Source of the DNA: a virus | Length of the DNA stretch: 24,508 nt | Strand: one strand, 5' to 3' | IMG/VR virus record: IMGVR_UViG_3300007160_000002 | Location: 1-24,508 of that record | Shown here: positions 4,022-23,299 of the stretch, one piece after another | Position numbering within the stretch: position 1 is the first letter of the stretch | Layout: each line of letters begins with the position of its first letter | Program-made: the position numbers and the translations under genes | Notes under the pieces: model-generated | The model's input: only the letters and a program-made list of their open reading frames with translations | The model's database searches: none | What the model was told of the DNA's origin: nothing

Positions 4022-4258
4022 TCAGTTCACTACTACAGGGCTGTTGGTGATGAGTACCATTGTCTGCACATGTTTCTTAATCTTAGGGTCAGTGATGGTT
4101 ACTGTTATGTTTACTTTGCTTTCGTATAGGTGCCCCACTAATCTACGTTTCTTACCTCTACTTCTTTTGAATATTTCAGCGTACTGTTCGCATGACGCTA
4201 GTACAGTGATATAGCAACCATTTGGTAGTAGGGGTTCTATTACATCTTTCAAAGGCAT
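4022..4258 (-). CDS. Tandem-family small protein, last of the array, 78 aa
   Basis: AGGAG lies seven bases before ATG 4258, which overlaps the upstream stop as TGATG. After a short N-region (MPLKDVIEPLLPNGCYITVL) there is a basic loop (KRSRGKKRR) and a C-terminal segment (KKHVQTMVLITNSPVVV) that resembles the array signature helix-LVHDI-strand. It is the most diverged member and has the most basic middle. It is the final gene of the coupled array in the direction of transcription. Function unknown. Confidence 0.65.
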   Translation of the reverse strand: MPLKDVIEPLLPNGCYITVLASCEQYAEIFKRSRGKKRRLVGHLYESKVNITVTITDPKIKKHVQTMVLITNSPVVVN

Positions 4259-4512
4259 CAGTCTGCTCCTATCACACGTATGTCATTTATCGCACAGATT
4301 GTCTGTATGGCTTTGAAGTACTCTGGGTGGGTATCGATATGGTTTCGATTCAATCTAACGACAGCGATTGATACAGGGAGTTTGTTGCGGTCTACCCCTG
4401 ATATGGAGGCAATGAAGTTCTTATCCACAGAGGAGTAGATACCGCCTGTGTCGGGGAATACATTCAAATCATGTGGTTTGAGTGCTAGTGCTAGTTCAAG
4501 TATTGTCATCAT
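4258..4512 (-). CDS. Tandem-family small protein, 84 aa
   Basis: The start at 4512 (ATGATG) overlaps the upstream stop as ATGA and follows GAGGTGAG directly. The C-terminus (EYFKAIQTICAINDIRVIG) is a clear example of the array signature, with Asn-Asp in place of His-Asp. The middle (GGIYSSVDKNFIASISG) matches the paralogues' paired strands. A longer frame upstream adds 29 residues but ignores the coupled start. Confidence 0.7.
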   Translation of the reverse strand: MMTILELALALKPHDLNVFPDTGGIYSSVDKNFIASISGVDRNKLPVSIAVVRLNRNHIDTHPEYFKAIQTICAINDIRVIGAD

Positions 4513-4751
4513 CTCACCTCGAAGCCATGAACGAGTGCTAGGGTCTTGAATAGCGCTTTTACTTCCATGGACAGGTAGTGACTGAAATGGCCTACCCATG
4601 CAATTACAAATGTATCGGAAGTACTATCACCTATGATTCTGGTGGCAGAGTAGTAACCAATCAGTTCGGTATGGCCGTTGGCATAGATACAACCTCCTCG
4701 GAGGTACATAGATTCTTTACGTAGTATTTCGTTTAGTTCATCAGTAGTCAT
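4509..4751 (-). CDS. Tandem-family small protein, 80 aa
   Basis: ATG 4751 overlaps the previous stop as ATGA, with GAGG about ten bases upstream. MTTDELNEILRKESMYL gives the typical N-terminal helix, CIYANGHTELIGYYSAT the strand pair with the family's IGY motif, and EVKALFKTLALVHGFEV the C-terminal signature ending directly at the stop. It is close to a minimal complete member of the family. Confidence 0.72.
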   Translation of the reverse strand: MTTDELNEILRKESMYLRGGCIYANGHTELIGYYSATRIIGDSTSDTFVIAWVGHFSHYLSMEVKALFKTLALVHGFEVR

Positions 4752-5011
4752 ATCTTGAATGCCTCGTCTATTACCCTGAGTGGTATGTCGTATTTCTTGC
4801 AGACTTCTTTAAGGGTTTTGATTTCGTTGACGTAAGGTTGTGCATGCTTGCGTAGAACAATGTGAGTTACTGTTGGTGGTTCCATACCGGTTCTATGAGA
4901 AGCATGGGCAAAAGCTATTGATACAGCTTCCCTGTCAATTTTTATAGTACCGTTCGGATTCAGGTAGATATGGTACTTAGCCAATATTCCTGCTAGATGA
5001 ACCCTTAACAT
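4748..5011 (-). CDS. Tandem-family small protein, 87 aa
   Basis: GGGAG six bases before ATG 5011 supports the start, and the gene overlaps the upstream stop by seven bases. The N-helix (MLRVHLAGILAKYHIYL) and C-terminal EIKTLKEVCKKYDIPLRV fit the family, with YDI instead of HDI and one extra helical turn. A His-rich middle (AFAHASHRTG) is specific to this copy. Confidence 0.7.
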   Translation of the reverse strand: MLRVHLAGILAKYHIYLNPNGTIKIDREAVSIAFAHASHRTGMEPPTVTHIVLRKHAQPYVNEIKTLKEVCKKYDIPLRVIDEAFKI

Positions 5012-5280
5012 GTCAGACTCCCTATTGGTATGTCATGGATTACAGCCAAAGCAGTGATTTGTTTGATAAGGTCATTGAGCTCTTCATGTGCTGCATCATT
5101 TATACCTTGCAAACGTGGTACTGGGATAGGACGGAAGAAGTTAACTTCCTGTTCTTCACTGTGTCGGTTGAAGTCGAGGTAGCCTATACGCATTTGGTCG
5201 TAATACAGGTTGCCCGAGGATGGGAATACTGCCACACCCAGCGGGCCGGTAATGAGTTTGATGAATTGAAGGTAGGTCAT
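5005..5280 (-). CDS. Tandem-family small protein, 91 aa
   Basis: ATG 5280 is in an ATGA overlap and has GGAG six bases upstream. MTYLQFIKLITGPLGVAVF, then NLYYDQMRIGYLDF, then LIKQITALAVIHDIPIG show all three family blocks in order. The insert between the strands (FFRPIPVPRLQGIN) is Pro-rich and particular to this member. Confidence 0.72.
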   Translation of the reverse strand: MTYLQFIKLITGPLGVAVFPSSGNLYYDQMRIGYLDFNRHSEEQEVNFFRPIPVPRLQGINDAAHEELNDLIKQITALAVIHDIPIGSLTC

Positions 5281-5519
5281 GAGTTCTCCAATACTATGAT
5301 TTTGATGTCGTGGACTAGGCAGAGTGTTTGTAGCTCTTTCATATTCGGGCCATCGAGTGATGCTTTAAGAAGGTTTATTTGTACTAGATTTAAGGGATGC
5401 CCCCAGCTAAAAGCACATACGCCAATTTTACTGCCACCATACCGGTACAAACCACCAGAACTAGTTATGTGATAACCCAGTGGATTGAATATGATTTCGT
5501 TAGCTTCGCTTTTGGTCAA
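5277..5519 (-). CDS. Tandem-family small protein with TTG start, 80 aa
   Basis: No early ATG exists in this frame. The TTG at 5519 is chosen because GGGGAG lies nine bases upstream and the resulting start (LTKSEANEIIFNPLGYHI) aligns with its neighbours (MTKQEFEEAC and MTYLQFIKL). A GTG at 5540 with a more distant AGGAG is the alternative and would give 87 aa. The strand block (GLYRYGGSKIGVCAFS) and the ending MKELQTLCLVHDIKIIV are classic for the array. Confidence 0.68.
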   Translation of the reverse strand: MTKSEANEIIFNPLGYHITSSGGLYRYGGSKIGVCAFSWGHPLNLVQINLLKASLDGPNMKELQTLCLVHDIKIIVLENS

Positions 5520-5775
5520 AGAATTGTTCTCCCCATTCACCGCGTATTGATGCTCCTTTTAACTCATGAATCATTATTAGTGTGCGCAACGCTTTAAAGC
5601 ATTCAAGTTCACTGGTAGATTCAAGCAGGAACACCCTTTGTATGTTTCCCTTCCAATCTACAGTTACATAGCCAATTTGATGGGAGTAGCCATAGTTACG
5701 GTAGATACGTAGATTTCTTGGATGGAACCACACCCCGACCCCTCGGCATGCTTCTTCGAATTCTTGTTTAGTCAT
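5500..5775 (-). CDS. Tandem-family small protein, 91 aa
   Basis: GAGGG six bases before ATG 5775 sets the start, and there is an eight-base overlap with the upstream gene. MTKQEFEEACRGVGVWF, NYGYSHQIGYVTVDWKG and ECFKALRTLIMIHELKG represent the three family blocks. After the signature it has an extra C-terminal tail (RGEWGEQFFDQKRS) that overlaps the next gene and may simply be read-out of the overlap. Confidence 0.7.
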   Translation of the reverse strand: MTKQEFEEACRGVGVWFHPRNLRIYRNYGYSHQIGYVTVDWKGNIQRVFLLESTSELECFKALRTLIMIHELKGASIRGEWGEQFFDQKRS

Positions 5776-6046
5776 GAAGTGCCCTCGGTTGGTTACAATA
5801 GACGCTTACTGTGTCTTCTAGGTTGTTGATGAGAATCAGTGCTTTTAGTTCTTTGGTTAGCTCTGGGTCTTCTAAACGGATGCGAAGGCCATAGTCATAG
5901 TCATACGTCATACCACCTACTGCACGACCTTTGTCTGATTTACGTAAGTGCCATACGGCACCTAGTTGACTGTCTTGAATGGCCTGGTATCCGGGCATCC
6001 AAGGTAGGATAACCTTATGTACCAGTTCATAGATGGAGTACCTCAT
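5768..6046 (-). CDS. Tandem-family small protein, 92 aa
   Basis: ATG 6046 is in an ATGA overlap after GGGGG. The N-helix is longer than usual (MRYSIYELVHKVILPWMPG). The middle contains AVGGMTYDYDYGLRIRL and the C-terminal part ELTKELKALILINNLEDTV fits the signature with Asn-Asn for His-Asp. An extension of 15 residues follows. Confidence 0.7.
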   Translation of the reverse strand: MRYSIYELVHKVILPWMPGYQAIQDSQLGAVWHLRKSDKGRAVGGMTYDYDYGLRIRLEDPELTKELKALILINNLEDTVSVYCNQPRALHD

Positions 6047-6294
6047 TCATAACCCCCGAATAAGTGGCATTCCCATATGGTGGTGTTTAATAAAATAAGG
6101 AGTTCTCTGTATTTAGAGCTCTTGTACACAGTTAATGACTTGGCTAAATCATCCTCACGGCTGTAGCGGAAATACCCATAGATTGGCCCTCGTCCGTAAT
6201 CACCTAGCTCGATGATGTACCATTGGGTCTTTGACCGTTCTAACTGCAAGCCATGTACTTCAAGGTCCTTGTTGATTTTGGATAAGGTATTCAT
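6043..6294 (-). CDS. Tandem-family small protein, diverged, 83 aa
   Basis: AAGGA eight bases before ATG 6294 and an ATGA overlap fix the start. The N-helix and strands are recognisable (NKDLEVHGLQLERS, then GPIYGYFRYSRED), but the C-terminal signature is degraded to KYRELLILLNTTIWECHLFG. It is placed in the family by position and order of elements more than by the signature itself. Confidence 0.65.
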   Translation of the reverse strand: MNTLSKINKDLEVHGLQLERSKTQWYIIELGDYGRGPIYGYFRYSREDDLAKSLTVYKSSKYRELLILLNTTIWECHLFGGYE

Positions 6295-6518
6295 TCGATA
6301 ATCCTTTGCTCATGCAGAGTACACATGGCCCTTAGATGATTGGCTCCGTATGCAATAACAAACCCTCTTGGTTTATCGGTCCTACCATCATAGGAAAGGA
6401 AACCTACCCAATCATTTTCGTAATGTAAGTCACGACCATTAGCTATCTTTCCACCAATACGGTATCCAAAGTGACGCTTGAGCATGATTAGGAAGTGACT
6501 TGATTTCATCTGTGCCAT
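6291..6518 (-). CDS. Tandem-family small protein, 75 aa
   Basis: AGGAG eight bases before ATG 6518 favours it over an ATG nine bases later that would form an ATGA overlap. SSHFLIMLKRHFGYRIG, YENDWVGFLSYDG and NHLRAMCTLHEQRIIE give a compact member that ends two residues after the signature. A basic, Gly-rich turn (GGKIANGRD) separates helix and strand. Confidence 0.68.
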   Translation of the reverse strand: MAQMKSSHFLIMLKRHFGYRIGGKIANGRDLHYENDWVGFLSYDGRTDKPRGFVIAYGANHLRAMCTLHEQRIIE

Positions 6519-6808
6519 ACGCCTGGCTCCTCTCGACAGTCGTGCTTTGTAAAAGGGACCCCATGTATAGTGAAGTGAGCCATCAACTCTTTCTCTACCG
6601 GCAACCCTCGTATACTGAGTACTACGTACTCTGTGATTTCTCCAGTGGTCCAGTCACCACTACTACTGAGGATGCCAATGTTAAGACCAGCCCATACAAT
6701 AAAATCCGAATCATCGATACGGCAGGCTGCAGCTTTTACTGCTTTGGCTACGTTCTGGTGAAAGGTATTCATACACGGTACTGATTCAGTATTTGATAAC
6801 TTCGACAT
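6506..6808 (-). CDS. Tandem-family small protein, 100 aa or 88 aa
   Basis: Two starts are possible: ATG 6808 with a weak GGTGG site and a 23-base overlap, or ATG 6772 with no clear site but better agreement with the lengths of the paralogues (MNTFHQNVAKAVKAAACRI). The signature is KELMAHFTIHGVPFTKHD. Strands are seen in IVWAGLNIGILSS and EYVVLSIRG. The C-terminal tail overlaps the next gene. Confidence 0.6.
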   Translation of the reverse strand: MSKLSNTESVPCMNTFHQNVAKAVKAAACRIDDSDFIVWAGLNIGILSSSGDWTTGEITEYVVLSIRGLPVEKELMAHFTIHGVPFTKHDCREEPGVWHR

Positions 6809-7004
6809 TGTTTACCACCATTACTGCAGCTATTTCACGACTACAGGTTTTTACTTGATAGATAGCCTCATCGCTATAGATACCAAAGTGCTCGCCTACG
6901 TCAGCGTAGTAAAAACCATAGGTCATGTTGTTTTTGATTATGTGGCCTTTAAGGAATCGATATCCACTTCCTCTCAGGATTTCTTGAGCTTGATGAAGCA
7001 ACAT
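6786..7004 (-). CDS. Tandem-family small protein, 72 aa
   Basis: GAGG five bases before ATG 7004. At 72 residues it is among the shortest members: MLLHQAQEILRGSGYRFL, then TYGFYYADVGEHFGIYSD, then CSREIAAVMVVNNVEVIKY. Asn-Asn replaces His-Asp in the signature. Its first 56 bases overlap the end of the upstream gene in a different frame. Confidence 0.68.
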   Translation of the reverse strand: MLLHQAQEILRGSGYRFLKGHIIKNNMTYGFYYADVGEHFGIYSDEAIYQVKTCSREIAAVMVVNNVEVIKY

Positions 7005-7266
7005 AATGGCCTCGTTTGGTTATAGTAGTACTGAAGTTGGAACGTTCGATATCGAATATGGCAGCGATAGCGAATATCTTCTTATCGGTTTCTGAAATGA
7101 ACTCTTCCTGGAAGTCACTACAGTTTAGGTCTACTACTTTGAATTCTGAGTTCATACGGAAGATGAGTGGAGAGTTAGGGAAACGTAGGTAGTAACCGCT
7201 ATGCAACACTGGCAAGCCGGAGGCTTCCAGTGCGCCGCGAACGTCTTGCATTGTTGGTTTAGTCAT
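6949..7266 (-). CDS. Tandem-family small protein, 105 aa
   Basis: AAGGA six to seven bases before ATG 7266 sets the start; 24 in-frame residues upstream lack support. TMQDVRGALEASGLPVL, GYYLRFPNSPLIFRMNSE and KKIFAIAAIFDIERS fit the family plan with FDI for HDI. A 25-residue basic and Ser-rich tail follows the signature, inside the overlap with the next gene. The region around its codons 12-20 forms a strong GGA-loop hairpin at 7207-7232. Confidence 0.65.
   Translation of the reverse strand: MTKPTMQDVRGALEASGLPVLHSGYYLRFPNSPLIFRMNSEFKVVDLNCSDFQEEFISETDKKIFAIAAIFDIERSNFSTTITKRGHYVASSSSRNPERKWISIP
7207..7232 (-). promoter_or_regulatory. Intragenic hairpin with GGA triloop
   Basis: CACTGG-C-AAGCC pairs with GGCTT-CCAGTG around GGA, giving 11 pairs with one bulged C. 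It lies near the start of the leftward gene at 6949-7266. It may be a further hairpin promoter for the genes to the left, an RNA structure, or an effect of codon choice. The CCTGTATA core of the two intergenic sites is absent. Confidence 0.3.
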
Positions 7267-7576
7267 AGTAGGTCCTTTTGTGTTGACGACCTTCTTCCCA
7301 CGCGACATGAGGTTTGGAACCAATGGTGCGATGAGCAAGTTCCTCTTTCATGAGGTCAATTGCTTCGCGTATATACTGGTGAAAATCAGGTCTGTCGGCA
7401 TGGGATTCTCTGGTTCTAACCAAGGTGCGTTCGAAAGAATCCAGCATGTTATACAGCCCTTCATCAGTCATAGAGCCCACAGCTTCGTGTAGGTCCAGCT
7501 TTGGGTAAGTCTTCATGATGTTTGGGTTATAGGTAACCCCATCAGACTTACGCTCTAAGTGCGTAGTTTTCGTCAT
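7259..7576 (-). CDS. Helical hypothetical protein, 105 aa, second small family
   Basis: AGGA seven bases before ATG 7576. Unlike its neighbours it is all-helical. After an N-terminal segment (MTKTTHLERKSDGVTYNP) comes MTDEGLYNMLDSFERTLV and, about 35 residues on, IDLMKEELAHRTIGS. The gene at 8625-8840 shows the same two blocks with similar spacing, so these two are probably paralogues inserted between members of the larger array. Function unknown; a short coiled-coil dimer is plausible. Confidence 0.68.
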   Translation of the reverse strand: MTKTTHLERKSDGVTYNPNIMKTYPKLDLHEAVGSMTDEGLYNMLDSFERTLVRTRESHADRPDFHQYIREAIDLMKEELAHRTIGSKPHVAWEEGRQHKRTYYD

Positions 7577-7859
7577 CAGATATTCCTCGTTCCCTAATGC
7601 CTTCAGTAAACTCTATGTCGTGTAATAAACAAAACACGCGAAGCGCTGTTTTTAGTTCCTCAGACGGTTGATTAACGTAGAAAACCCGAATCTTATTCTC
7701 TGCGTGGATATACTGAGCTGCCGCTTTATTTCCCACGATTGGTTCAACAAACAAACGGTTTTTCAAACTAGGGTAGTACGTTACGTGGTACTCGGGCATA
7801 TGCTCGAACAAGTAGTTATTTAAAGTTTGCTCGATTGTCTCGATATCGTCCTTTTTCAT
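7548..7859 (-). CDS. Tandem-family small protein, 103 aa
   Basis: GGAGAAG shortly before ATG 7859 selects this start; the 30 in-frame residues upstream are inside the previous gene. The acidic N-helix (MKKDDIETIEQTLNNYLF), the strands VTYYPSLKNRLFVEP and KIRVFYVNQ, and the signature SEELKTALRVFCLLHDIEF make it one of the best members. The codons for the signature (about 7631-7652) form a GAA-loop inverted repeat. Confidence 0.72.
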   Translation of the reverse strand: MKKDDIETIEQTLNNYLFEHMPEYHVTYYPSLKNRLFVEPIVGNKAAAQYIHAENKIRVFYVNQPSEELKTALRVFCLLHDIEFTEGIRERGISDDENYALRA

Positions 7860-8145
7860 AGTGTTTCTTCTCCAATGGACATGGGTCACGAGTGTAGACA
7901 TACCCCAAAACCTCAATGCCATGTAACATACAGTGCATTCGTACTTCATCCATTTCAGGCGAACGACACCAAAAGTTTACTTTGAGGACAATGGTTTGTT
8001 TATGTATGGTCCTCTTAAAAGCGACGTAGGCTCCGATGATATTCCCGCCGGTACAGTCCTTGTGGTCAAGGAAGATGTAGTTACTTTTACGGTTATGGCG
8101 GATTCGAAGTCTTTGTAACAAGTCGTAAAATTCATCAGCAGTCAT
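7816..8145 (-). CDS. Tandem-family small protein, 109 aa
   Basis: ATG 8145 follows AGGAG by five bases and overlaps the upstream stop as ATGA; a GTG six bases earlier is not needed. MTADEFYDLLQRLRIRHN, then GGNIIGAYVAFKRT, then MDEVRMHCMLHGIEVLGYV carry the family pattern. A basic tail (KKHYEKGRYRDNRAN) of about 25 residues overlaps the next gene. Confidence 0.72.
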   Translation of the reverse strand: MTADEFYDLLQRLRIRHNRKSNYIFLDHKDCTGGNIIGAYVAFKRTIHKQTIVLKVNFWCRSPEMDEVRMHCMLHGIEVLGYVYTRDPCPLEKKHYEKGRYRDNRANFK

Positions 8146-8387
8146 ATCCACTCCTGTACTGTTATCTCATGCAGAACGCACGCGGCGCGGAGCGCAAGGG
8201 TGCGTTCGTCATCAAGATTATCTATATGAACTCCCACCACGTAAAAATCCCCATCCCAATCAACATTATCAGTAACGGTATCTACGTGGGCTATGATTTC
8301 ATCGTCGATGTAAATGGTGTCGTTACCCACGTGGTATTCATAATCCAGTGGTTTAAGTATTTCGAAGAATTGGCGGTCAGTAATCAT
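8142..8387 (-). CDS. Tandem-family small protein, 81 aa
   Basis: ATG 8387 overlaps the upstream stop (ATGA), with GGGGAG about ten bases upstream. MITDRQFFEILKPLDYEYHV, NDTIYIDDEIIAHVDT and RTLALRAACVLHEITVQEW are the three blocks; it is strongly acidic. Its 3' end contains a large imperfect hairpin with a GGA loop (8174-8207). Confidence 0.72.
   Translation of the reverse strand: MITDRQFFEILKPLDYEYHVGNDTIYIDDEIIAHVDTVTDNVDWDGDFYVVGVHIDNLDDERTLALRAACVLHEITVQEWI
8174..8207 (-). promoter_or_regulatory. Large imperfect hairpin with GGA loop
   Basis: The outer stem GAACGCAC/GTGCGTTC (8 bp) and inner stem GCGC/GCGC (4 bp) are separated by a small internal loop and capped by GGA. It lies inside a leftward coding region, about 30 bases before the next coupled start at 8145. 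It could be an intragenic hairpin promoter or an mRNA structure influencing coupling. No conserved upstream core is seen. Confidence 0.3.
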
Positions 8388-8665
8388 TGTAGGTCCACTC
8401 CCCATAAGACCATCCAAACACGCAGTTGTTTACGTGGGCCTGTATTGCCTACGATTTTAACATCATGCACTTTATTGAAAGTTTCTTTGGTAACAGGATT
8501 CATGTGCTCCACAGTTCGAATAGTAGCCAGCATAAGCGGCTGGTCAGTTTGAGTTGGATTACGTTTGCGTGGATTTACAAGCGACCAATATCCATTCCCG
8601 AGGCTTCGAAGTTCAGCCCCTGGCTCAACATCCTCCACCTTCAGCAACAGGTCGGTTATTAGCAT
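8384..8665 (-). CDS. Hypothetical protein, possibly a diverged array relative, 93 aa
   Basis: The ATG at 8665 is chosen since AGGAG lies six bases upstream; an ATG at 8671 would abut the GGAG. The protein starts MLITDLLLKVEDVEPGAELR and contains GNGYWSLVNPRKRNP and KETFNKVHDVKIVGNTG, the latter faintly like the array signature but placed internally. The C-terminus (RKQLRVWMVLWGVDLQ) is Trp-rich. I treat it as an outlier, not a sure family member. Confidence 0.62.
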   Translation of the reverse strand: MLITDLLLKVEDVEPGAELRSLGNGYWSLVNPRKRNPTQTDQPLMLATIRTVEHMNPVTKETFNKVHDVKIVGNTGPRKQLRVWMVLWGVDLQ

Positions 8666-20719: not shown

Positions 20720-23002
20720 ATGTCCATTCGAGTTCTGGGTGTCTTGCAGACACCTATGAGTCAAGTGGTACAGAACGTTCCGATTAAAGTTGTAACCTCA
20801 AGTGGCTTCGGTAATGTCTTAACGACTTCCGAGGCCATTTATTTTACCGATAACCAAGGTAATTATGACTTTAATCTAGCGTTCGGTACTCATGAACTAT
20901 ATGTGATGTTCACAGATACATTCGAGCATATCGGTACAACGGTAGCCAACGATTCTCTGACTGACCCGTCATATACAATTTCGGAGCTGTTGTATTACAC
21001 AACACCGCTTCCGAATGAAAATGAACAATGTATCCGTGATGACTTTGGTGGCTGTATTTCAGCACTTGAAAACGCATTCGATACTTGTATTGTTCAGTTA
21101 TCTCAACAGGTAGTACAAGGTGACACTGGCGTGCGTACCGATATGACTACCTACACTAATGAACGACTACAAGCATGTTCAGCTGAGTTAACAGATACTA
21201 TCGTTGCAGGTGATGCCCGAGTTCTCATTGAGAGCCAGGCTTATGCTGATGCTACCGGGGCTGAGATTAGTTGTTGTACGAATTTGTTGGACACTCGGTT
21301 AGTGGACATTTGCTCTACGCTAACTGCGTACACCACTTCAAATGATGTTGCCATCGCCTGTCTGTGTACTGACATGGATGCGGGGGATGCTCAGGTACTT
21401 CAGACGGCCCAAGCTTATTCAGATACGTGTAATGGGATTACTTGCTCGAACTTGGTAAACATGGTTCAGGCATGTGATGCTGCGGTACAAACCTGTATGG
21501 AAGCCATCAGTAATGAAGATGGTCTTCATCAAGCTGGTTATGAGATTGTTACAACAGCTGGAGATGCTTCTGCAAGTATTGCTTTGGTGGCCACTAGCTG
21601 TACGACAACTGGTGTACAAGAGTCGTGTATCTTGATGCAAGCTGACAAAATCATCATGCACAACGGTAACCCAAATACTCAGAGCTACCCGTTCCAAGTG
21701 GTTGGTAACTGTGTGTACATGGATGCTGCGTACATTCGATGTCTGACTGGTGACAAAATCAAATCGAACACAACCATTCGAGCCGGTTCAGGTAGTTGCA
21801 CGGCAGGTATGAATGGTGATGACTCTGGTAGTGACACATCTAACCGAAACCGACTATATCGATTTTGGGCTGGTGGAGAATACGCTCGTACTTCTGGAGG
21901 TACTCCATGTGCCCCATTCCGTGTGACTAATACCGGTGCCGTAATCGCTACTAATGCCTATATCACAGGCTGTATCAACACTACTTGTTTGGTTTTCTGT
22001 GACGCCTCGGCAGTTCCACCTGAGATTACTAATGCCCAGTTGACGGCAGACACTGCGTGTTCCAAAGCAGTTTCAGCATGTAACTGTGGTATTGCTTGTG
22101 GTAACTCGGCCAAGAGTCAAGCAAGTACAGCCTGCACATGTGGTATTAATTGTGGTAATGAAGCTAAGAACCAAGCTTCTACTGCATGTCAGTGTGGTAT
22201 CAACTGTGGTAACACCGCTAAATGCTGTGCATCCACTGCTTTGGCTAAAGGTTGTGCGGCATGTACCTGTGCTAAAAACTGTGGTAATGCAGCGAAGACC
22301 TGTGCTAACTGTGCGTGTAAGTGTGCAATTAACTGTTCTGCTGCTGCGTGTACTTGGACAGAGAATCGTATCTACCCATGTCAAAGCCAAATCCAGATTA
22401 AATCGGGTAACTATGTTGCTGGTTCAGCTGGTTGGGCAATTGACTGTAACGGTAATGCTGAATTTAACAATGCTGTTGTACGCGGTACTATCAGTGCAGC
22501 TACTGGTTGTTTCTGCGGTACGATTTATGCGAACTGTATTGTTGGTGACGTAACTACTTCAGCTATCTGCTCTATTACAGGATGTTCAGGTGGGTACTAT
22601 AACTGGACTACTAAGGATACGGTAACTGTACAAAGAAACCCACTCTACGATTACCACATGCTTGTGTCCGGTCTACGTACTTATCTATCAGCTAATGCAT
22701 CAGCCTCTGGTGACGTAAATCGTTGGACTCCGAATACTGCGAGGATTGACGTACGTATGCTCACTGGGTCTACGCAATGTGACTGTACATCAGTATCCCT
22801 TACAGGTGGTGATAGTGATGTTTACAGGACAGGTGTTCTTACTACTGGGCCAATGGTAGTTAAAATTCCTAAGGGCAGCGGCTCTATTTCATTTTGTTTG
22901 CAGATTCGAAATTGTGCAGGTTCGAACTATGGTGCTCTTACTTGTGTATGCTCACAATGTGTACAGTACAGTTACTTCCGTCAAGGTACGGTATTTAGTT
23001 AA
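20720..23002 (+). CDS. Cysteine-rich tail fibre/central tail protein, 760 aa
   Basis: AAGGGGG precedes ATG 20720. Residues 1-100 resemble the prophage tail-fibre N-terminal domain (PF08400-like). About 270-430 and 560-620 resemble lambda J/DUF1983-type segments (ESCILMQADKIIMHNGNPN; NAEFNNAVVRGTISAATG; GTIYANCIVGDVTTSAI), and the C-terminus looks beta-rich. I count 58 Cys (7.6%), none before residue 104 and 22 between 447 and 544, where three 18-residue repeats carry C-x-C-x3-C. Cys replace polar, charged and small residues expected in ordinary J-like sequences. Free thiols, disulphides, metal binding or S-modification are open. It probably forms part of the tail or a receptor-binding fibre. 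Confidence 0.82.
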   Translation: MSIRVLGVLQTPMSQVVQNVPIKVVTSSGFGNVLTTSEAIYFTDNQGNYDFNLAFGTHELYVMFTDTFEHIGTTVANDSLTDPSYTISELLYYTTPLPNENEQCIRDDFGGCISALENAFDTCIVQLSQQVVQGDTGVRTDMTTYTNERLQACSAELTDTIVAGDARVLIESQAYADATGAEISCCTNLLDTRLVDICSTLTAYTTSNDVAIACLCTDMDAGDAQVLQTAQAYSDTCNGITCSNLVNMVQACDAAVQTCMEAISNEDGLHQAGYEIVTTAGDASASIALVATSCTTTGVQESCILMQADKIIMHNGNPNTQSYPFQVVGNCVYMDAAYIRCLTGDKIKSNTTIRAGSGSCTAGMNGDDSGSDTSNRNRLYRFWAGGEYARTSGGTPCAPFRVTNTGAVIATNAYITGCINTTCLVFCDASAVPPEITNAQLTADTACSKAVSACNCGIACGNSAKSQASTACTCGINCGNEAKNQASTACQCGINCGNTAKCCASTALAKGCAACTCAKNCGNAAKTCANCACKCAINCSAAACTWTENRIYPCQSQIQIKSGNYVAGSAGWAIDCNGNAEFNNAVVRGTISAATGCFCGTIYANCIVGDVTTSAICSITGCSGGYYNWTTKDTVTVQRNPLYDYHMLVSGLRTYLSANASASGDVNRWTPNTARIDVRMLTGSTQCDCTSVSLTGGDSDVYRTGVLTTGPMVVKIPKGSGSISFCLQIRNCAGSNYGALTCVCSQCVQYSYFRQGTVFS
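22076..22237 (+). repeat. Three 54-base tandem repeats encoding an 18-residue Cys motif
   Basis: Units at 22076-22129, 22130-22183 and 22184-22237 encode A-C-x-C-G-I-x-C-G-N-x-A-K-x-x-A-S-T. The first two keep Gln before AST; the third has CC there. DNA identity is lower than protein identity, so the repeats are old and protein-level selected. More degenerate units continue to about 22351. Confidence 0.85.
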
Positions 23003-23011
23003 GGAGGCCAC

Positions 23012-23299
23012 ATGGCTATTATTTCAGGTAACCTAACCGACCCGATTGGTACAGCCTTGGCTTCCAAGGTTCGCATCAAATGCTTAAAAGGCTCGGGTGA
23101 TGTGTTGGCTACAGCTGAGGCTACGATTACTCTTGCTGCGGGTGGAGCTTATAATTTTACTCTTGGTGAAGGTGATTATTCTATTGAGTTGTTTTCGGAT
23201 GACCAGTGGAATGAGGTAGGCACAGTGCGTATGCCGGCAGGCGCTAGTGATGGGACTATTCAGTTTATTATTGATACCTATCCGATTCCGGCGGCATAA
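23012..23299 (+). CDS. Stand-alone PF08400-like fibre N-terminal domain, 95 aa
   Basis: AAGGAGG precedes ATG 23012 closely. The protein (MAIISGNLTDPIGTALASKV..., GAYNFTLGEGDYSIELFSDD, ending IIDTYPIPAA) aligns by eye with residues 1-99 of the preceding fibre: ISG/LGV start, VRIK/VPIK strand, a GxY-F-L-G segment, the WNEVGTV/FEHIGTT strand and the PIP/PLP end. It has one Cys. It could be an adaptor, a regulator of fibre assembly, or a remnant of a second fibre gene that lost its receptor-binding part. Last gene before the terminator. Confidence 0.7.
   Translation: MAIISGNLTDPIGTALASKVRIKCLKGSGDVLATAEATITLAAGGAYNFTLGEGDYSIELFSDDQWNEVGTVRMPAGASDGTIQFIIDTYPIPAA

Follow-up and report, generated by a model that had tools for sequence, protein, structure and literature searches.

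A GT9-like glycosyltransferase paired with cysteine-rich tail adhesins of marine phages, and the case for dense S-glycosylation

A tail fibre with 58 Cys in 760 residues, encoded by a Vibrio phage, stands next to a gene for a glycosyltransferase of the GT9 type, and the same pairing of enzyme and extremely Cys-rich tail protein recurs in phages infecting Vibrio, Aeromonas and marine cyanobacteria. On the basis of the enzyme pairing, the occurrence of unrelated acceptors, the heptose genes of the cyanophages and a change from GD to GR in the enzyme, we therefore propose that the fibre is probably the acceptor of the adjacent enzyme, and is S-glycosylated at multiple Cys, most likely with heptose. 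The broader reading is favoured by a somewhat smaller measure: dense S-glycosylation (probably heptosylation) of unrelated tail adhesins by a GT9-derived enzyme with Arg in place of Asp may be widespread and so far undescribed among Vibrio, Aeromonas and marine cyanobacterial phages, the cyanophages carrying heptose-nucleotide genes of their own.

The window and its cysteine-rich fibre

The window (the whole stretch analysed, 24,508 nucleotides of the IMG/VR virus record IMGVR_UViG_3300007160_000002) belongs to a Schitoviridae-type Vibrio phage and is colinear with Vibrio phage SBP1 (Schitoviridae, Electravirus). The gene order is terminase, adaptor, large fibre, three small genes, glycosyltransferase, Cys-rich fibre, a 95-aa protein, PhoH and M15 peptidase, with the portal next in SBP1; the glycosyltransferase gene, which did not figure in the original prediction's account of the fibre, ends 9 bp before the fibre start (table 1). 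Cys counts are ordinary elsewhere in the window (TerL 5, PhoH 3), including the other fibre, for which about eight Cys in 1489 aa had been given: eight are counted, in an open reading frame of 1496 aa from the first TTG. The 95-aa protein resembles only an N-terminal domain as found in phage fibres, and lies directly 3′ of the Cys-rich fibre in SBP1 also; it is possibly a collar partner or a filler of the collar ring. On the minus strand, at 4022-8417, about 15 small ORFs (75-130 aa) form an apparent array of diverged paralogues with a C-terminal motif of the type ELKALxLIHDI in common, and a comparable run of small hypothetical genes is found in SBP1.

Table 1. Features of the glycosyltransferase and fibre region, in window coordinates.
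Feature	Coordinates	Strand	Evidence or remark
Glycosyltransferase, GT9/heptosyltransferase-like, 244 aa	19976..20710	+	PF01075, SBP1/K479 homology; start set by the conserved SBP1 start
Cys-rich tail (collar) fibre, 760 aa, 58 Cys; proposed glycosyltransferase acceptor	20720..23002	+	
Cys-free anchoring domain, residues 1-103	20720..21028	+	residues 1-168: phmmer match to XM1 collar spike gp40 (PDB 7kjk), E 1.8e-5
Predicted helical shaft, residues 104-265, 13 Cys, 10 in common with K479 fibre	21029..21514	+	
Phage_Tail_Tip (PF09327) domain, residues 255-350	21482..21769	+	E 5.4e-16
Cys-dense repeat region, residues 447-544, 22 Cys; 18-residue repeat CxCGIxCGNxAKxxASTA	22058..22351	+	
J-like C-terminal module, residues 545-640	22352..22639	+	Cys at columns polar elsewhere
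95-aa protein, phage_tail_N-like, 1 Cys	23012..23299	+	phrog_2636, E 4.5e-8

Recounting bears out the figures originally reported for the fibre, namely 58 Cys in 760 residues (7.6%), none in residues 1-103 and 22 in residues 447-544, and at least 58 Cys in 760 would arise with a binomial probability near 1e-37 given the window background of 0.77%. The ‘steady enrichment’ said to follow residue 103 has to be given up: the Cys come instead in patches that track the modules, with 14 in residues 104-300, 8 in 301-446, 22 in 447-544 and 14 in 545-760. The notion of a Cys-free N-terminal anchoring domain agrees with the match of residues 1-168 to the collar spike of Vibrio phage XM1, in which an Ig-like domain binds the neck and leads into a trimeric coiled coil (PMC10457771), and the long tail fibre gp53 of the Schitoviridae phage DEV likewise has an N-terminal barrel anchor and then a coiled coil (PMC10925440). 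The gp40 match together with the SBP1 synteny indicates a collar-anchored fibre of the Schitoviridae/XM1 type, the coiled-coil part resting on a low-confidence helix prediction. AF2, run with a 3-sequence alignment, returned N-terminal strands and then a helix at low confidence (pLDDT 30); neither this model nor one of residues 431-617 by themselves (pLDDT 36) was good enough to show how the Cys are arranged. The fibre resembles XM1 gp40 and DEV gp53 in its neck-anchored Ig-like or beta-barrel N-terminus followed by a trimeric coiled coil, but for those proteins no Cys enrichment is reported and the receptor-binding parts are unrelated. The J-like C-terminal module is common to more than 500 phage records, and it is for this module that the suggested replacement of surface-type residues by Cys is borne out, the Cys columns being occupied by Lys, Ser, Asp, Asn and Glu in the homologues.

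Comparison with relatives shows that Cys positions turn over between lineages. The homologous fibres of SBP1 (gp62) and K479 contain 41 and 39 Cys, respectively. The window fibre and gp62 have in common 20 of the 22 Cys of residues 104-440 and all five of residues 545-615. In K479, 10 of the 13 Cys of residues 104-265 are kept, against 54% identity at the other residues, an excess that is by itself not significant (Fisher p 0.09), and merely one of the nine in residues 266-440; Cys has therefore been gained and lost at differing columns while its content stayed high. The K479 fibre has 2.4% Cys overall and almost none in its C-terminal third. The 18-residue Cys-rich repeat occurs four to five times in the window fibre; at that place SBP1 gp62 (L003 15001-17778) has a single unit together with an insertion, a module some 200 aa long. 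Among near relatives, then, the tip is of modular build. Colinear homologues that are poor in Cys (0.4-1.2%) are found in phages 1.224.A, PG11 and 1.097 and in the IMG/VR contig L015. Scanning of the genome contigs for the fibre repeat yielded no relatives, and a search across IMG/VR for CxC ahead of the YADG repeat gave chance matches only.

The Cys codons of the fibre gene are 50 TGT and 8 TGC. Other two-fold codons of the gene (20720-23002) display no comparable bias. That neutral drift or a mutational bias towards TGT filled the fibre gene with Cys could be argued from the ratio of 38:24 in the rest of the window, but is scarcely credible: a preference for TGT is a genome-wide habit (104:36 in the rest of SBP1), residues 1-103 of the very same gene are free of Cys, Cys is kept between lineages where other residues changed, and proteins of unrelated families next to this enzyme are Cys-rich as well. 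In the 18-residue repeats, Cys is retained while adjacent codons vary silently. A cause of the TGT excess at the DNA level was also considered and discarded, the excess being in frame and kept amid silent changes.

Binding of iron, copper or zinc by the thiols, for metal storage or sensing, is very improbable. The phages are marine, the tails of marine phages have been proposed to carry iron, and His-x-His iron sites have been proposed for tail fibres of one Schitoviridae phage (PMC11705849), but CxxC pairs, of the metal type, are depleted in the fibre (3 against 6.1 expected) and in its SBP1 homologue (0 against 2.1), the Cys positions drift, and the enzyme would be left unexplained.

The glycosyltransferase

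The enzyme of the window, with the motifs GGLGR, PEPY, QPHG, RS and CDTAALH, matches PF01075 (GT9) at E 1.1e-5 and 25.3 bits, above the cut-off of 22; the P-SSM2 and HJ05 enzymes stay under it (15.4 and 16.8 bits). It is 95% identical to SBP1 gp63 and 53-54% identical to the K479 homologue, both in the same position. The Vibrio and cyanophage enzymes are only 25-30% identical to each other and have the motifs PEPY, QPxG, RS and D..xxH in common. As similarity to PF01075 is moderate in Vibrio phages and weak in cyanophages, we infer both the donor and the fold. The lipopolysaccharide (LPS) heptosyltransferases WaaC, WaaF and WaaQ (PF01075) provide the best Pfam, NCBIfam and PDB matches and share the C-terminal D..xxH motif of the nucleotide site; the phage enzymes differ in scoring far under the equivalog cut-offs (E about 1e-4 and 21.6 bits, against a curated cut-off of 134.6 bits, for the NCBIfam equivalogs of heptosyltransferases I, II and III), in having GR for GD, and in that the gene is tied to tail adhesins.

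At the position of GD in WaaC, 121 of 123 distinct enzymes have GGxGR, which is aligned to the GDV of WaaC through a stretch that alone scores weakly. The O-heptosyltransferase TibC depends on Asp as its catalytic base (PMC4358343), and a thiol acceptor would presumably have less need of such a base. The bacterial autotransporter heptosyltransferases (BAHT) TibC and AAH, which act on TibA and AIDA-I, offer the closest precedent for a GT9-like heptosyltransferase encoded with an adhesin that is decorated at many sites (PMC4358343); here, however, the protein is a phage tail protein, the acceptor would be Cys rather than Ser, and Arg occupies the aligned position of the catalytic base. The BAHT enzymes are further distinguished by an N-terminal beta-barrel, a beta-hairpin thumb and a Cys4 iron finger (PMC4358343), while the window enzyme, with 244 aa, has no room for such accessory modules, starts directly at the GGxGR motif and contains 2 Cys; on account of this architecture and of its catalytic motif it falls outside that family.

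GT9 enzymes of known function attack hydroxyls, which speaks against S-glycosylation. The glycosyltransferase could modify the tail proteins on Ser, Thr or some other residue, the Cys serving something else; the known protein heptosyltransferases of the TibC/AAH group act on Ser (PMC4358343), and Ser and Thr are plentiful in the Cys-rich proteins. We regard this as improbable, given that the unrelated acceptor families have no compositional oddity in common but Cys, and that the change from Asp to Arg takes away the residue expected to activate a hydroxyl.

Co-occurrence of the enzyme and Cys-rich adhesins

An enzyme homologue was found in 54 of 50,697 phage records (31 Vibrio, 19 cyanophage, 3 marine single-cell and 1 Aeromonas), the cyanophage records comprising 14 of Synechococcus, 4 of Prochlorococcus and 1 named only ‘Cyanophage’. 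Each of the 54 also encodes a tail protein that is itself Cys-rich or homologous to one that is, Cys having been counted directly in SBP1, K479, K482, D505, HJ05, S-CAM1, S-CAM3, P-SSM2, S-SSM7, Sf-FS3 and three AG-345 contigs, and the others assigned by homology; tblastn with the Cys-rich adhesins brought up the rest of the cyanophage records, which stem from isolates of these phages or of phages nearly identical to them. Among Vibrio phages, the 31 accessions with the enzyme coincide exactly with the 31 that have this fibre family, and the adjacency of enzyme and fibre is kept in three lineages. Strikingly Cys-rich proteins lie by the enzyme in all nine other phages whose neighbourhood was read: in Aeromonas phage HJ05, a protein of 559 aa with 23 Cys is directly upstream of it, and others are encoded by S-CAM1 (36 Cys in 311 aa), S-CAM3 (36 in 329 aa; 35 in 302 aa), P-SSM2 (36 in 356 aa; 36 in 355 aa), AG-345-F15 (33 in 353 aa) and AG-345-E02 (27 in 219 aa), and by Sf-FS3 and S-SSM7 (three proteins, each with 25-30 Cys in about 260 aa). 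The highest count of the set, 73 Cys in 758 aa, belongs to a protein of AG-345-O18 (L047 10016-12292) with no Pfam match, which adjoins another Cys-rich protein from a family not related to its own.

A scan of IMG/VR seeded with cyanophage enzymes, which took in 80 loci out of at least 478, and a reverse scan from the adhesin, with Cys-containing peptides as queries, extend this picture, both being seeded samples dominated by one adhesin family. Of the 64 enzyme loci that extend 3 kb or more upstream, 58 contain a same-strand ORF with at least 4% Cys (usually 7-12%). Among the other six, five have Cys-rich adhesins elsewhere on the contig and the sixth (L121) is a 19.8-kb fragment, so that enzyme and Cys-rich protein are on the same contig in 63 of 64. 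Such same-strand ORFs number 161 of 706 within 6 kb of the enzyme and 6 of 209 further off. In the reverse direction, the enzyme is found at 60 of 64 Cys-rich loci, including all 51 whose downstream sequence runs to 6 kb or more. At 35 enzyme-free loci, a small mixed sample that serves as a rough control, none of 157 ORFs of at least 200 aa reaches 6% Cys.

The enzyme is absent from the phage records of seven Cys-poor fibre relatives and from the 36-kb contig L015, all searched whole, and no relatives emerged when the genome contigs were scanned for it. Cys-free glycine-rich adhesins, sought as controls by tblastn with the cyanophage adhesins, did not appear among the matches, which were only phages that carry the enzyme or contigs from one and the same single-cell virus.

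Proposed acceptor families and sugar genes

The 180 Cys-rich ORFs cluster into a glycine-rich family of 169, the fibre family of the Vibrio phages, and single ORFs or pairs for which no similarity was detected, one pair being a HAD-like false positive. An S-SSM7 member of the glycine-rich family matches PF21722, and a search of eight enzyme-free phage records for this domain found none. As several acceptor families are without detectable mutual similarity, Cys and the enzyme are what the acceptors have in common. No clear sequon was found around the Cys.

In the cyanophage loci, a kinase and an adenylyltransferase have as best NCBIfam matches the two domains of HldE, below the curated cut-offs; these HldE-like genes are present in 25 of 36 long loci, the other 11 being without them within the flank, and a carbamoyltransferase is present in 80 of 80 cyanophage-type loci. 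The genome segments of SBP1 and the loci of K479 and HJ05 yielded none of the three genes. The LPS of marine Synechococcus is not known to contain heptose, whereas Vibrio makes ADP-heptose, and this difference between the hosts could explain why heptose genes are carried by the cyanophages but not by the Vibrio phages.

Some cyanophage-type loci have further peculiarities. The ‘phosphoheptose isomerase’ annotations in P-SSM2 (L046 19021-19365) and S-SSM7 (L049 23711-24046) match HAD-type phosphatases (TIGR01689). In L115 (9993-11816) and L124 (9989-11790), there come after the enzyme gene one or two genes for a protein of about 300 aa with an SGNH-hydrolase-like start (FGCSYT..WP.W) and no Pfam match, possibly an additional tailoring enzyme, and in L066 (9001-11389) two glycosyltransferase copies alternate with carbamoyltransferases.

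As early as 2010, ‘LPS gene clusters’ were described in cyanophages P-SSM2, S-SM2 and S-SSM7, and whether they are functional or stuffer DNA was left open (PMC3037559). The P-SSM2 and S-SSM7 loci contain T4-GC 304, 305, 307 and 308 named in that work; here they are seen to adjoin the enzyme and the Cys-rich adhesins.

Disulphides or sugars on the cysteines

The main rival of S-glycosylation, although we consider it unlikely, is a disulphide network, in which Cys would be reduced during assembly and oxidized after lysis, so as to cross-link and stiffen the trimeric fibre as in Agrobacterium phage Milano, with the enzyme having another target. In Milano, structural proteins contain 2.1-2.4% Cys with disulphides throughout, and the trimeric tailspike is linked via Cys24/Cys26 (PMC10491603, PMC10811340); no other described virion with a marked Cys enrichment was found, save those of its relatives 7-7-1 and OLIVR4, which share the feature. 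Milano, however, is Cys-rich across the virion, and here it is the adhesins only (2.4-12%), tied to the enzyme; in SBP1, virion-wide enrichment of the Milano type is not found, the other virion proteins being Cys-poor (portal 0.14%, MCP 0.25%, several 0%). CxC pairs are slightly over-represented in the fibre (10 against 6.2 expected, p 0.06), in the direction that disulphides would predict. Over-representation of CxC or CC as a sign of disulphide rings was set aside as weak. A parametric straight-helix trimer of residues 446-546, a crude model, places no Cys in the Ala/Gly core and most beside it, a point for disulphides, and has in the best register no interchain Cys CB-CB distance under 5.5 Å, a point against them, the nearest being about 5.7-6.1 Å at the tightest packing. 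Cys counts are even in 89 and odd in 84 of the proteins, and this parity, like the drifting Cys columns, is unlike conserved disulphide pairs. Above all, disulphides would leave the near one-to-one pairing with a glycosyltransferase unexplained. The original prediction had named disulphide locking, metal binding and covalent modification as options, and the last of these has the strongest support, since in unrelated phages, and with acceptors of unrelated families, a GT9-like gene and a Cys-rich tail protein go together in nearly every case; metal binding loses ground as CxxC is not enriched, and disulphides stay as the rival.

Should S-glycosylation be correct, the enzyme would act on the fibre in the infected cytoplasm, moving a sugar (most likely heptose, with ADP-heptose as donor) to the thiols of many Cys in the shaft and tip, and the product would be a densely S-glycosylated adhesin with tens of modified Cys per chain. 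Vibrio phages would draw ADP-heptose from the host; cyanophages would bring an HldE-like kinase and adenylyltransferase, and decorate a different, glycine-rich adhesin. The sugar coat may alter host binding, guard against proteolysis or mask the adhesin.

A sugar on the sulphur of Cys, as proposed here, is known from glycocins such as sublancin, but these are small secreted peptides, in which GT2-type enzymes modify one Cys or two. In the open-access literature, no report of S-heptosylation or of a link between cyanophages and cysteine-rich proteins was found, and Cys-rich phage fibres were found in the Milano group alone.

Implications

Even if Cys were not the acceptor, the near one-to-one link between one enzyme and extreme Cys content in unrelated proteins calls for an explanation. 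If the proposal is true, the ‘LPS gene clusters’ noted in cyanophages (PMC3037559) would acquire a function, several ‘hypothetical’ adhesin families would become predicted glycoproteins, recognizable by the simple signature of a GGxGR/PEPY enzyme and an adhesin with 4-12% Cys, and the system may supply enzymes for site-dense S-glycosylation. Such dense modification of cysteines would, moreover, be a kind of protein glycosylation that forms a class of its own, new to date, in the proteins by which abundant viruses of the ocean are expected to contact their hosts.
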